Source of the DNA: Cetobacterium sp. NK01
GTDB taxonomy: Bacteria; Fusobacteriota; Fusobacteriia; Fusobacteriales; Fusobacteriaceae
DNA length: 64,000 bases
Reading direction: 5' to 3'
Assembly (NCBI RefSeq): GCF_024506395.1
Contig: NZ_JANIBO010000001.1
Span: forward strand, 682,001-746,000
Numbering within the stretch: the first letter of the stretch is position 1; every line of letters begins with the position of its first letter. The notes under the pieces were generated by a model. It saw only the letters and a program-made list of their open reading frames with translations. It ran no database searches and was not told where the DNA came from. This document shows positions 11,721-20,565 of this stretch, in pieces. The translations under genes and the position numbers were made by a program.

Positions 11721-12770
11721 TTATTGAAATATTTCATAAACCTCATCTTTTGTTTTCATTATTTTAGGAATTTCTACTGCTGCTTTCAAAATAGGATACG
11801 CCAAAACTGCTCCAGTTCCTTCTCCTAAACGCATCTCCATATGTAAAAATGTTTTTAAATCTAGTGCTGTCATAACGACTTTCATTCCTGGTTCTTCACT
11901 CATATGAGTTCCTATTAGGTAATTTTTTACCTTTGGTTCTATTCTAGTTGCAACTAATGCTGCTACTGCTGATATAAAACCATCTATTAGCATAGGCTTT
12001 CTCTCTAATGCTGCACCTAAGTAAAGTCCAACCATACATGCTATATCAAGTCCACCAACGCATCTTAAAACTTCTATTGGTTCTTTATTAAATAAATCAT
12101 ATTTCAGACAAGCATCTTTTATCACATCTTTTTTTCGTCTTAATCCCTCATCTGAAAGTCCTGCACCACAACCTACAACTTTTTCTATATCCTCTTTTGT
12201 TAAAGCGTATAATATAGCTGAACTTGTTGTTGTATTAGCTATTCCCATCTCTCCATTAGAGAAGAAATCATACTCTTTTTTTTCTTTTATTATTTCTACT
12301 CCAACTAAGATTGCTTTTATTACCTCATCTAAACTCATAGCAGGTTCCTTACTAAAATTTTTAGTTCCATAAGCTATTTTTTTTACGTATAAGTTTTCAT
12401 AGTTTCTTGGAATATCTCCTTTTATTCCAATATCTATCAAATTTAGAGGTATTCCTAAACTTTTACATAAAATTCCAATAGCTGCAAAAGAGCTTAACAT
12501 TGCTTCTGAGACTATTCTTGTATATTCTATTGGACAAGATGATACTCCTTCTTCTATAACTCCATTATCAGATGATGCTATAAAATGGCATCCAGCTTTT
12601 AATTCATTTAGGGGTTGGCCTGTTATTCCCGCTACTTTCATTGCTAAATCTTCTAAAACACCTAAACTTTTCTCAGGTTTCATTCTAGAATCTAATATTT
12701 TTTTACACTCTTTTATAGCTTCTGTATCAACACCAATTATATCATTTTGAATCTTTTTTATTCTGTCCAA
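11721..12770 (-). CDS. cobT: Nicotinate-nucleotide--dimethylbenzimidazole phosphoribosyltransferase
   Basis: CobT activates the lower ligand of cobalamin: nicotinate mononucleotide plus 5,6-dimethylbenzimidazole gives alpha-ribazole phosphate. The 349 residues match the family length. Characteristic stretches are MGIANTTTSSAI and VVGCGAGLSDEG in the middle, and HMSEEPGMK and MRLGEGTGAVLAYPIL near the C-terminus, which contains the catalytic glutamate. The start is TTG, preceded by AGGGGGC with a 6-nt spacer, and it begins just after the cobC stop. It is fourth in the cobU-cobS-cobC-cobT nucleotide-loop operon. Confidence 0.95.
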   Translation of the reverse strand: MDRIKKIQNDIIGVDTEAIKECKKILDSRMKPEKSLGVLEDLAMKVAGITGQPLNELKAGCHFIASSDNGVIEEGVSSCPIEYTRIVSEAMLSSFAAIGILCKSLGIPLNLIDIGIKGDIPRNYENLYVKKIAYGTKNFSKEPAMSLDEVIKAILVGVEIIKEKKEYDFFSNGEMGIANTTTSSAILYALTKEDIEKVVGCGAGLSDEGLRRKKDVIKDACLKYDLFNKEPIEVLRCVGGLDIACMVGLYLGAALERKPMLIDGFISAVAALVATRIEPKVKNYLIGTHMSEEPGMKVVMTALDLKTFLHMEMRLGEGTGAVLAYPILKAAVEIPKIMKTKDEVYEIFQ

Positions 12771-12772
12771 TT

Positions 12773-13360
12773 TTAGCCCCCTATATTTAATCCCTTTAAT
12801 ATGGGATATCCTTCAGAAAATTCAATTATAACTACACCACCATTTTCTACACTAAACTTCCAATAAGATTCTAATCCATTAGAAAAGTAATGACTTAAAA
12901 TAGTATTAATTACTCCCCAGTGAGTAACTAAAACTGTTGTTCCATCTAAATCAACTTTCTTCTCTATAAAATTAATAGCTCTTTTTTGAAGCTCTAAAAC
13001 ACTTTCGCCAGTTATATAATTATAATTTTCCCAATTACTTTGACTCTTTTTTAACTCCTCTGGATATTTGTCCAAAAGTTCTTTATAACTATGTCCTTCA
13101 AATATTCCAAAATTTAGTTCACGTAATTCTTGATCAATTAAGATTTCTAATTTTTTATAATTTACAATCTCTGCTGTGTCTATTGCTCTTCTTAAATCGC
13201 TTGCATATATCTTTTCATAATTTATATTTTTTAAAATTTCCCTAGTTTTTTCTGCCTGCTCTTTTCCTTTTTCTGTTAATTCTGGATCTAAAATTCCATA
13301 GTAAACCCCTTCAATATTTAATTTTGATTCACCATGCCTAACTAAAATAATTTTCCCCAT
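12773..13360 (-). CDS. cobC: Alpha-ribazole phosphatase-like histidine phosphatase
   Basis: Removes the 5'-phosphate of alpha-ribazole phosphate (or of adenosylcobalamin phosphate) in the nucleotide-loop branch. It has the histidine-phosphatase RHG motif (ILVRHGESKLN, near residue 8) and the second catalytic histidine in VLVTHWGVIN. The family is broad, so the cobalamin role rests on its place between cobS and cobT. A GTG at 13369 is part of the ribosome-binding site AGGTGA; ATG at 13360 has the right spacing, giving 195 residues. Confidence 0.88.
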   Translation of the reverse strand: MGKIILVRHGESKLNIEGVYYGILDPELTEKGKEQAEKTREILKNINYEKIYASDLRRAIDTAEIVNYKKLEILIDQELRELNFGIFEGHSYKELLDKYPEELKKSQSNWENYNYITGESVLELQKRAINFIEKKVDLDGTTVLVTHWGVINTILSHYFSNGLESYWKFSVENGGVVIIEFSEGYPILKGLNIGG

Positions 13361-13369
13361 CAATCTCAC

Positions 13370-14134
13370 CTATAAAGTTACATACAGTAAAACTAATGAA
13401 AGTACTGAAGATAGCTCTAACAATGCTCCTAAAGTATCTCCAGTTATACCACCTATTTTTTTTGTCATTAACTTTCCAAATAAAAACCCACAAATAATTA
13501 GTATATTTAAAACAATAAATAAACTTATAAAAGGTAACATAAAATACTGAGCTATTCCATATAATATAGCTGTAACAGTGACATAAGATATTAATAATCC
13601 CATCTTATCAGTGTTATCAACAAAAGTTTTACCCATTCCAGTGGCTCTTGCATAAGGCTCAAAAGCACAGTTGACTACACTATTTATTCTAGCTAATATA
13701 GGTACAATAAGCATTATTACACCTTGATTTATTCCAAATAATTCCGATGTTTCTACTAAGAAAGCAACTTTAAATATAAAGTAAAGTATTAAAACCAAAA
13801 CACCATTTGTTCCAACTCTAGAGTCTTTCATAATCTCTAACATTTTTTGTTTACTTCTATAACTAAATATTCCATCAAAAGTATCCGCTAGACCATCTAA
13901 ATGTAATCCACCAGTTACTATAACATCAAGAGTAACTAAGATTATTGCCATTAAAATAGGCGATGGAATAAATGTTTCTAAAACCATTGCCACAGCTAAG
14001 TTTATAATACCTATCACTAATCCTACTATTGGAAACCATTTCATTCCTTTTCCTAAAGCTTTCGAATCAAAAGTTTTTCCTCCTGGAAATGGTAATCTTG
14101 TCATAAATTTAAAAAGTAAAGCTAAACCTTTCAT
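13370..14134 (-). CDS. cobS: Adenosylcobinamide-GDP ribazoletransferase
   Basis: Integral-membrane cobalamin synthase that joins adenosylcobinamide-GDP with alpha-ribazole (or its phosphate). The N-terminal FKFMTRLPFPGG motif and the acidic GGLHLDGLADTFDG stretch near residue 80 are family hallmarks; several hydrophobic segments follow. A TTG at 14146 lies inside GGAGGAG, the ribosome-binding site for the ATG at 14134, so the shorter 254-residue form is given. It sits 15 bp after cobU. Confidence 0.95.
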   Translation of the reverse strand: MKGLALLFKFMTRLPFPGGKTFDSKALGKGMKWFPIVGLVIGIINLAVAMVLETFIPSPILMAIILVTLDVIVTGGLHLDGLADTFDGIFSYRSKQKMLEIMKDSRVGTNGVLVLILYFIFKVAFLVETSELFGINQGVIMLIVPILARINSVVNCAFEPYARATGMGKTFVDNTDKMGLLISYVTVTAILYGIAQYFMLPFISLFIVLNILIICGFLFGKLMTKKIGGITGDTLGALLELSSVLSLVLLYVTL

Positions 14135-14149
14135 TTTCTCCTCCAAACT

Positions 14150-14710
14150 CTATTTTAATTTTAACTCTAATCCAGAAACTATTAAATACGCTTCATGGCA
14201 TTCTTTTGCAACCAATTGATTTATTCTACCGCCTATATCTCTAAAATATCTTCCTAAAGCATACGGAGGAACTAATCCCATTCCAACTTCATTAGAAACT
14301 ACAACCATATCTAATGAACTATTTTTTATAAAATCTATTAATTTTTGAACTTCATTCCCAATCTCTTCCTCAATCTCTTTAACAATATCTTGAGTTATTT
14401 TATCCCAGTTGATATCTCTATCCATAATCATAATATTTGTGACTAAATTTGTTAAACAATCTAATAATACAACTCCATTTAAATCTTTATATTCTTCTAA
14501 AATTTTATAAAGATTTCTATACGCCTCTATTGTTATCCAATTTTCTCCTCTTTGAATTTTGTGTAGTCTTACTCTTTCCTTCATCTCTTCATCAAAAGAT
14601 ATCGCTGTAGCTACATAAATCTTTTCCTTATTCAATTGAAAAACTTTTTTTTCAGCAAATGAACTTTTCCCACTTCTTGCTCCACCAGTTACATAAATTA
14701 TTTTCCCCAA
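14150..14710 (-). CDS. cobU: Adenosylcobinamide kinase / guanylyltransferase
   Basis: Bifunctional CobU phosphorylates adenosylcobinamide and transfers GMP to give adenosylcobinamide-GDP. The P-loop GGARSGKSSFAEK is near the N-terminus. The histidine that carries GMP in the family is probably the one in VRLHKIQRG (near residue 48), and SNEVGMGLVPPYALGRYFRD is the family motif. The start is taken as TTG 14710, spaced 5 nt from AGGTGA; the upstream GTG at 14719 is inside that site and the ATG at 14714 is out of frame. It heads the nucleotide-loop operon. There is no cobalamin riboswitch upstream. Confidence 0.94.
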   Translation of the reverse strand: MGKIIYVTGGARSGKSSFAEKKVFQLNKEKIYVATAISFDEEMKERVRLHKIQRGENWITIEAYRNLYKILEEYKDLNGVVLLDCLTNLVTNIMIMDRDINWDKITQDIVKEIEEEIGNEVQKLIDFIKNSSLDMVVVSNEVGMGLVPPYALGRYFRDIGGRINQLVAKECHEAYLIVSGLELKLK

Positions 14711-14743
14711 GCATCTCACCTTTTATCCCTTTATAATACTTTA

Positions 14744-17722: not shown

Positions 17723-18232
17723 CTATTCTATTGAATCCTTTCTTATTGATAGTTTAGAAATTTTCACTTCTATATAATCAACTTTTAAATCTAACTTCTG
17801 CTCTAAATTATTTTTTATTAAATTTTGTATATCCACAGTTTTATTTGATAAATTATTATTAGATACCATATCTAAATTTAACTTAACAAAATATTTACTT
17901 CCTCTACTTCCGCAATCAATCTTTAAACCTTTTATATCACTATCTTTTGATAAAATTTCTTTAATCAAATTTTTTACAGTATCAGTAGAAATATGTACTG
18001 ATCCGTGTTCATTTTTTATAACATAATCTTTTTCTTTGGAAAAATTAGATAATAATTTTAATATTGATATACATATATATATCAAACATATATTGAAAAC
18101 TACTGCTTTAAATATAAGTGAGCTTGTATCTATTGTTGAAAAATACTGTGGCATTGTTATATAACCTATTCCTATTACAGATATGACAATTATTCCTAAC
18201 CATGCGAAGAAAAATATTAATTTTTTTATCAA
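17723..18232 (-). CDS. amaP: Alkaline-shock response membrane anchor AmaP
   Basis: In Staphylococcus AmaP anchors Asp23 to the membrane. Here 169 residues contain two N-terminal membrane helices (roughly 5-25 and 40-60) and a soluble Asp23-like C-terminal part (about 70-165). The longer frame's GTG at 18241 falls inside the AGGGGTGA ribosome-binding site; TTG at 18232 is correctly spaced and preferred. It follows asp23 by about 57 bp, across a hairpin that may dampen transcription. Confidence 0.82.
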   Translation of the reverse strand: MIKKLIFFFAWLGIIVISVIGIGYITMPQYFSTIDTSSLIFKAVVFNICLIYICISILKLLSNFSKEKDYVIKNEHGSVHISTDTVKNLIKEILSKDSDIKGLKIDCGSRGSKYFVKLNLDMVSNNNLSNKTVDIQNLIKNNLEQKLDLKVDYIEVKISKLSIRKDSIE

Positions 18233-18259
18233 TAAACTCACCCCTGTAAAGAAAGATTA

Positions 18260-18289: not shown

Positions 18290-18667
18290 TTATACAATCT
18301 CTATATCTTCATGCTTTTCGTCATATTCTTCTGTTAAAATTTTTACATCTTGAACAAATACATTTACTTCTACAACTTTTAATCCAGTCATTGTGCTTAC
18401 AGCTGTTAAAACATTCTTTTGGACATTTTGAGCAACTTCAGAAATTTGATATCCATATTCTACGATTATATAAATCTCTACACTACACTCTTTTTCCCCT
18501 ACTTCAACCTTTACACCATTTGTAAGTCTCTTTTTTCCTAGCATTTTGCTAACTTCATCTGCTACTCCACCTGCTAATTTATAAACTCCAGAAACATCTT
18601 GTGCTGCTTTTGCTGATATTGTTTTTACAACATCGTCTGCTATTTTTATATTTCCTAATTCGTTCAT
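18290..18667 (-). CDS. Asp23/Gls24 family envelope stress protein
   Basis: The 125-residue protein has the DUF322 fold signature: IADDVVKTISAKAAQDVSGVYKLAGG at the start, GVKVEVGEKECSVEIYIIVEYGYQI in the middle, and VVEVNVFVQDV near the end, followed by an acidic tail. In Gram-positive bacteria Asp23 forms a membrane-associated layer linked to cell-envelope stress. Its presence with AmaP in a diderm is noteworthy. A possible internal promoter lies 20-50 bp upstream, so it may be induced separately from accBC. Confidence 0.9.
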   Translation of the reverse strand: MNELGNIKIADDVVKTISAKAAQDVSGVYKLAGGVADEVSKMLGKKRLTNGVKVEVGEKECSVEIYIIVEYGYQISEVAQNVQKNVLTAVSTMTGLKVVEVNVFVQDVKILTEEYDEKHEDIEIV

Positions 18668-20094: not shown

Positions 20095-20508
20095 TTATCT
20101 TGCTGTGGCCTTTACTTTTAATAATATCTTACCATAGTCGACAACTCCACCGTCTTCTACAGTTATCTCTAACACCTCACCACTAACAGTAGATTTTAAA
20201 GGTGTTTTTAAACCCATTACATAAATATACCCTAGATCTTGACCTACTTTGATCTTATCTCCAATTTTTACTATATCTTTATAGAAATATTTCCCAATTC
20301 CAGTCGAAACAACAGTTTTTAAATTATCCTCTTTTTTATTTATTTCTTTTGTGACCTGAGTAGTTTCTTTAGGTAAAACTACTTTTCTTTGTGGAGATTT
20401 TTTTATTTTTATTTTTAAATTTTCATTTTCCTCATAACTAATTTCAGTAAGTCCGCACTCACTTAATACATTGATCAAATCTTCAATTTGAAACTCTTCC
20501 TTCTTCAT
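20095..20508 (-). CDS. accB: AccB-like (BCCP-like) protein lacking the biotin lysine
   Basis: The 137-residue protein has the two-part BCCP plan: an N-terminal helix region ([19 protein letters not shown]), a variable lysine-rich linker, and a C-terminal biotinyl/lipoyl beta-barrel from about residue 65 ([25 protein letters not shown]). In an ungapped alignment with ordinary BCCPs the acceptor site A-M-K-M reads V-M-G-L: residue 99 is Gly (codon GGT). A lysine occurs two positions later. ATG 20508 has GGAGG 5 nt upstream; a TTG at 20565 is unusable because it lies in the -35 box. Family placement is firm; biotinylation is doubtful. Confidence 0.85.
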
Positions 20509-20536
20509 AAGTTCCTCCATCAGTTTTTTATCACTT

Positions 20537-20565
20537 ATTTTAACATAATTTAAAAAATCATTCAA
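20537..20565 (-). promoter_or_regulatory. Promoter of the accB-accC operon
   Basis: Minus-strand TTGAAT (20560-20565) and TAAAAT (20537-20542) with a 17-bp spacer and an extended-10 TGT. Its position rules out any accB start upstream of 20508. Confidence 0.8.

Follow-up and report, generated by a model that had tools for sequence, protein, structure and literature searches.

A phylum-wide AccB paralogue with glycine in place of the biotinyl lysine, encoded directly upstream of accC in Fusobacteriota

In a 64,000-nucleotide stretch of the Cetobacterium sp. NK01 genome, referred to as the window, the first gene of the accC cluster encodes a protein resembling the biotin carboxyl carrier protein AccB (BCCP). 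Where carriers read A-M-K-M this protein, here called AccB*, reads V-M-G-L-K. The locus raises the question what an AccB paralogue without the biotinyl lysine may do beside a biotin carboxylase gene. An initial interpretation made from the letters of the window (the sequence-only reading) had left three options: biotin for AccC might be carried by another protein, AccB* might be a regulatory or structural BCCP, or a lysine shifted by two residues might be used instead.

An intact gene for a two-domain BCCP paralogue

The glycine at the biotin site is present as described, with GGT encoding Gly99 and a lysine at residue 101 (Table 1). The gene was also rightly called intact: its frame is open over 137 aa, and dN/dS is about 0.15. 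AccB* scores 35.3 bits against PF00364 (cut-off 22.1), which makes it a biotinyl-domain protein, and 50.3 bits against the AccB equivalog TIGR00531 (cut-off 115.2), thus not reaching the BCCP family score. A good ribosome-binding site had been noted, and GGAGG is indeed located 5 nt ahead of the ATG. The reported spacing of 13 bp was likewise found, counted as 13 nt from the AccB* stop to the start of accC, which is itself intact. The supposed consensus promoter is plausible by its position, with 9/12 matches and an extended TG, and by its position only, since sigma-70-like sites of this sort are not enriched here in comparison to shuffled sequences (3 found versus a mean of 3.4). Elsewhere in the window, cobT/cobS/cobU-like cobalamin genes were recognised by eye from their translations at 11721-14719.

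Table 1. Features of the AccB* locus, in window coordinates
Feature	Position	Strand	Basis
AccB* gene, encoding a BCCP paralogue of 137 aa that lacks the biotinyl lysine	20095..20508	(-)	translation; PF00364 and TIGR00531 scores
N-terminal helix and beta-hairpin domain, residues 1-38, counterpart of the E. coli AccB N-terminus	20395..20508	(-)	profile match and model
C-terminal biotinyl-domain barrel, residues 62-137, thumb absent	20098..20325	(-)	model and Foldseek
Gly99 codon GGT at the biotinyl-lysine column	20212..20214	(-)	sequence; Gly in 79/79 AccB*, Lys in 81/81 canonical AccB
Lys101 codon AAA ('shifted lysine'), unconserved	20206..20208	(-)	Lys in 36/79 relatives
Asp124-Tyr125 acidic-aromatic pair, changed in fusobacterial canonical AccB	20134..20139	(-)	alignment with AccB* relatives and ordinary AccBs
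Shine-Dalgarno GGAGG	20514..20518	(-)	sequence
Sigma-70-like promoter match TTGAAT-17-TAAAAT (read 20565-20537), not above chance	20537..20565	(-)	comparison with shuffles
accC, biotin carboxylase, 448 aa	18735..20081	(-)	TIGR00514, 723.8 bits, cut-off 626.5
Asp23/YqhY-family gene of the same cluster, after accC	18290..18667	(-)	PF03780, 118.3 bits
Second, weak Asp23-like gene	17723..18241	(-)	PF03780, 22.0 bits, below cut-off 28

Among PDB chains, E. coli AccB (4hr7_B) ranked first in the profile comparison, with a match over its whole length including both domains (E 4.5e-18), and in this alignment the glycine of AccB* is located opposite the biotinyl lysine of E. coli AccB. We modelled the window protein with AlphaFold2 as a single chain with five relatives in the input. 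The C-terminal barrel is confident (pLDDT about 80-91). Confidence is low for the N-terminal domain (pLDDT about 56-65), which shows a helix at residues 2-17 and strands at residues 21-25 and 31-35. Foldseek matches of the model include the BCCP domains of E. coli 4HR7, 1bdo and Arabidopsis BCCP1 9A87. AccB* thus combines the two parts of an AccB/BCCP, a homologous N-terminal domain and a biotinyl-domain barrel. An alignment to ordinary BCCPs without gaps had been claimed, which is correct around the biotin site and fails at the thumb, a 6-residue insert of the genome's own AccB that is absent from the window protein. Many AccB* relatives of other genera keep most of the thumb stretch.

AccB* shares the two-domain plan, the barrel fold and the place before accC with bacterial AccB/BCCP (TIGR00531; E. 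coli 4HR7), and differs from it by the missing biotinyl lysine, the relaxed biotin motif and a score below the equivalog cut-off.

Glycine and canonical AccB across Fusobacteriota

A search of the window's genome for a second biotinyl protein and for birA, as proposed by the sequence-only reading, was successful on both counts. Besides AccB* there are two further PF00364 matches, a canonical AccB (L001; C1:1740797-1741246, 152 aa, EAMKM, adjoining a folD-like gene) and a decarboxylase-type carrier with AMKM (L002). The canonical AccB reaches 122.2 bits against TIGR00531, above the cut-off of 115.2, and is identical to the window AccB* at 37/133 aligned positions (28%). Two birA matches lie over the cut-off (G000:C1:888895-889575 and G000:C2:158279-158986), and the genome also holds accD, accA and one single biotin carboxylase C-terminal domain. 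Since a canonical EAMKM AccB is present in the genome, another protein can carry biotin for AccC, which supports the first of the three options; EAMK was found in all 81 canonical AccBs read, each in a different genome.

Our survey comprised 98 Fusobacteriota genomes, accC being over the cut-off in 81 and absent from 17. AccB* lies directly upstream of accC in 81/81 accC-bearing genomes (established by eye for G014 and for the contig-edge G087), at a gap of about -5 to 129 nt (approximate). These include a genome of only 1.2 Mb (G067), and named members among the loci are Propionigenium maris, Fusobacterium mortiferum and a Fusobacterium MAG. In the 17 accC-less genomes no AccB* was found, save for a contig-edge fragment in G024 (71% complete). 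Three of the surveyed genomes (G015-G017) keep accD and accA and lack accC, AccB* and canonical AccB, so AccB* tracks AccC and not AccAD. AccB* and canonical AccB occur together in 79 genomes; AccB* is found without canonical AccB in G014 and G086 (both 82% complete), canonical AccB without AccB* in G051 and G060.

Alignment with these relatives, the check suggested for the glycine, showed it to be conserved. The lysine column holds Gly in 81/81 AccB* read, comprising 79 full-length alignment rows and 2 partial sequences; the 79-row alignment omits L015 and L049, both Gly by eye, and keeps the N-terminally truncated L076. Four codons are used for this Gly among the 78 AccB* scored (GGA 50, GGT 17, GGG 8, GGC 3; L014 unscored). 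When the 79 AccB* and 81 canonical AccBs were aligned jointly, the K/G column was the only one at least 90% fixed for different residues.

Median pairwise dN/dS among 11 congeneric genomes was 0.15 for AccB* (47/55 pairs), 0.18 for AccB (42/55) and 0.03 for AccC (54/55), values that are rough since many dS are near 1. Judged by these ratios, purifying selection acts on AccB* as it does on AccB. In a quick tree with 93 rows, which carries long-branch warnings chiefly for G097, one branch (SH-aLRT 99) sets all 37 AccB* apart, and another (SH-aLRT 99) does so for the 37 canonical fusobacterial AccBs. AccB* forms a single clade on this tree, distinct from canonical AccB.

A missing catalytic residue is what would be expected of a decaying pseudogene or of a sequencing error at the codon. 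The open frame, the low dN/dS, the invariance of Gly across the whole phylum and its four codons refute this, leaving such an origin with practically no probability. An active BCCP with biotin on Lys101 or another lysine could draw on Lys101 of the window protein and on the two birA matches. Residue 101 is however Lys in only 36/79 AccB* relatives and stands outside an E-x-M-K context, so use of the shifted lysine is not supported; the motif is also relaxed at E, A and M, and a normal AccB is present, which makes an active carrier scarcely credible. Sequencing error, pseudogene and shifted lysine are all rejected on the strength of the phylum alignment together with dN/dS.

Conserved features divided between the two paralogues

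We compared both paralogues with 50 ordinary AccBs, all from one other phylum (that of G098); 30 of them are the best matches to the AccB* profile, and 20 lower-ranked ones agree. Canonical AccB retains the residues on the biotin side (E96, A97, M98, K99, P69, M70 and C93), which in AccB* are relaxed or have given way to others. The reverse is seen at four other positions. Position 124 is acidic in 50/50 ordinary AccBs and 78/79 AccB*, and Lys in 59/81 canonical fusobacterial AccBs. Position 125 is aromatic in 50/50 and 79/79, respectively, and Lys in 77/81 canonical ones. At helix position 14 all 50 ordinary AccBs have Leu/Ile and 76/79 AccB* have Ile/Val/Leu, where Ser (41), Asn (31), Lys (7) or Asp (1) is found among the 81 canonical fusobacterial AccBs. 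Helix position 12 holds Ile/Val (42/50) or Ala (8/50) in ordinary AccBs, Met/Ile/Val in 78/79 AccB*, and Ala (73), Ser (7) or Gly (1) in the 81 canonical proteins. As shown by these alignments, the paralogues divided the conserved features of ordinary AccB between them. We read the reciprocal loss as subfunctionalisation of AccB* and AccB, and the four features retained in AccB* as a candidate docking face for AccC. An E147K mutant of E. coli AccB, altered at the residue that matches position 124, has been described.

The retained helix positions also bear on the idea that AccB* autoregulates the accC operon to which it belongs. In E. coli AccB this role falls to the N-terminal domain, and in AccB* it would have been freed from catalysis. 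AccB* retains N-domain features that are altered in AccB, its gene comes first in the cluster, and autoregulation of accBC by the N-terminal domain of E. coli AccB is stated in a passage of a review (PMC3896788). Autoregulation leaves the conservation of the whole barrel, of the acidic-aromatic pair and of the invariant glycine at the tip unexplained, and we regard it as quite improbable.

A profile scan with the five-sequence AccB* alignment yielded 5 loci, of which 3 belong to fusobacterial AccB* and the other 2 to ordinary AccBs of Alphaproteobacteria carrying EAMK. That it returned no AccB* from beyond Fusobacteriota is a weak result, as the scan recovered few of the known fusobacterial loci. 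Of 398 genomes in the phylum of G098, to which an alphaproteobacterial record had led, 308 showed profile matches; no lysine-less AccB was found among the 30 best and 20 lower-ranked of the matches listed for these 308 genomes, the lysine being present in 50/50. Within CC-licensed PMC papers we found no report of a bacterial lysine-less BCCP.

A proposed docking subunit resembling plant BADC

Given its residues, AccB* is unable to carry biotin at the normal site. We hold it to be rather probable that AccB* is a BCCP paralogue with no catalytic role, docking on AccC to assemble or tune acetyl-CoA carboxylase in a manner similar to plant BADC. The second option of the sequence-only reading, a regulatory or structural BCCP, gains indirect support from phylum-wide conservation, the invariant Gly and the retained non-carrier features. 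AccB* would be made together with AccC and would bind the AccC dimer via its N-terminal domain together with that face of the barrel on which the acidic-aromatic pair lies, so that a mixed AccC-AccB*-AccB sub-complex might be formed. AccB* would then be a fixed structural subunit which assembles or tunes acetyl-CoA carboxylase, and canonical AccB the mobile one, ferrying biotin between AccC and AccAD. We see about an even chance for a more far-reaching scheme: an ancient duplication of fusobacterial accB would have given rise to two obligate subunits, a biotin shuttle AccB without docking features and a Gly-tipped, biotin-less docking AccB* translated with AccC, resulting in a five-subunit acetyl-CoA carboxylase and a bacterial counterpart of BADC.

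BADC proteins are described as plant BCCP paralogues without the AMKL lysine, with 25–30% identity to BCCP, in parts of PMC11926652; the window AccB* is 28% identical to the canonical AccB of its genome. Like BADC1-3 of Arabidopsis, AccB* is a lysine-less BCCP paralogue found in the same genome as a true BCCP, in its case in 79 genomes. AccB* differs in being bacterial, in being encoded beside accC, in the loss of the thumb in the window protein and in the reciprocal feature loss shown by its partner AccB. The abstract of the same 2025 paper calls the non-catalytic BADC subunits 'unique to the plant htACCase' (PMC11926652). A section of a Brassica survey prints a motif of BCCP-like members, CYIEQLGGQFPIESDVTGEVVKI (PMC9578262). 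Set by eye against CIVEAMKLMNEIE, this single 23-residue motif shows a glycine where the lysine would align, just like AccB*. The shared Gly may reflect convergence or common descent. AccB* is probably BADC-like in its way of working, and the name is not meant to imply descent.

Plant work also offers two views of what such a subunit does. BADC was proposed first as an inhibitor competing with BCCP for BC, as stated in an excerpt of PMC7712654. In Fusobacteriota, AccB* could correspondingly be mainly a competitive inhibitor that fills AccB slots on AccC, so that fewer sites are loaded and malonyl-CoA synthesis is throttled, and it is AccB* and not the carrier that is co-encoded with AccC. One would expect some genomes to have lost a brake that is dispensable, though, and AccB* is retained in all 81 accC-bearing genomes, the one of 1.2 Mb among them; later plant work, as far as covered by the passages of PMC11926652, sees BADC rather as glue for the BC-BCCP sub-complex. 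We therefore consider inhibition as the main function unlikely. Both inhibition and transcriptional autoregulation would be compatible with these sequence data; an assembly role is likelier than pure inhibition, as none of the accC-bearing genomes lacks AccB*.

The glue subunits known from bacterial acyl-CoA carboxylases, which are not known to be related to BCCP, would resemble AccB* as non-catalytic assembly subunits if the role proposed here is right. Such glue subunits are mentioned in part of PMC11926652.

AccB* thus looks like a subunit that acts in the assembly or control of fatty-acid synthesis and takes no part in catalysis, a type described until now in plants. If true, a phylum-wide bacterial equivalent of BADC would show that a carrier is divisible into carrier and scaffold, and AccB* would give a small system for settling the dispute between glue and brake. 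For annotation, the gene named accB within the fusobacterial accBC-yqhY cluster in a passage of PMC5437119 would be corrected, as it does not encode the biotin carrier in the genomes read here.

Several genomes of the survey depart from the common arrangement. G015-G017, which belong to one genus (L212-L214, L090-L092), also have no biotin carboxylase C-terminal domain. The AccB-like matches seen there are only EAMKM carriers, that of G016 adjoining a decarboxylase-type membrane subunit, and malonyl-CoA synthesis may proceed via a transcarboxylation route in these genomes. In four Leptotrichiaceae-like genomes (L086-L089) there is a second accC with no AccB-like gene found upstream. G043 contains a second, complete accB(EAMK)-accC pair (L085), and G078 a further EAMK carrier (L173). 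In G062 (L122) and G063 (L118) canonical AccB forms the C-terminal end of a frame of roughly 611 aa, the remainder of which is, in G062, a carboxyltransferase of the oxaloacetate-decarboxylase/pyruvate-carboxylase type (PYC_OADA, HMGL-like).
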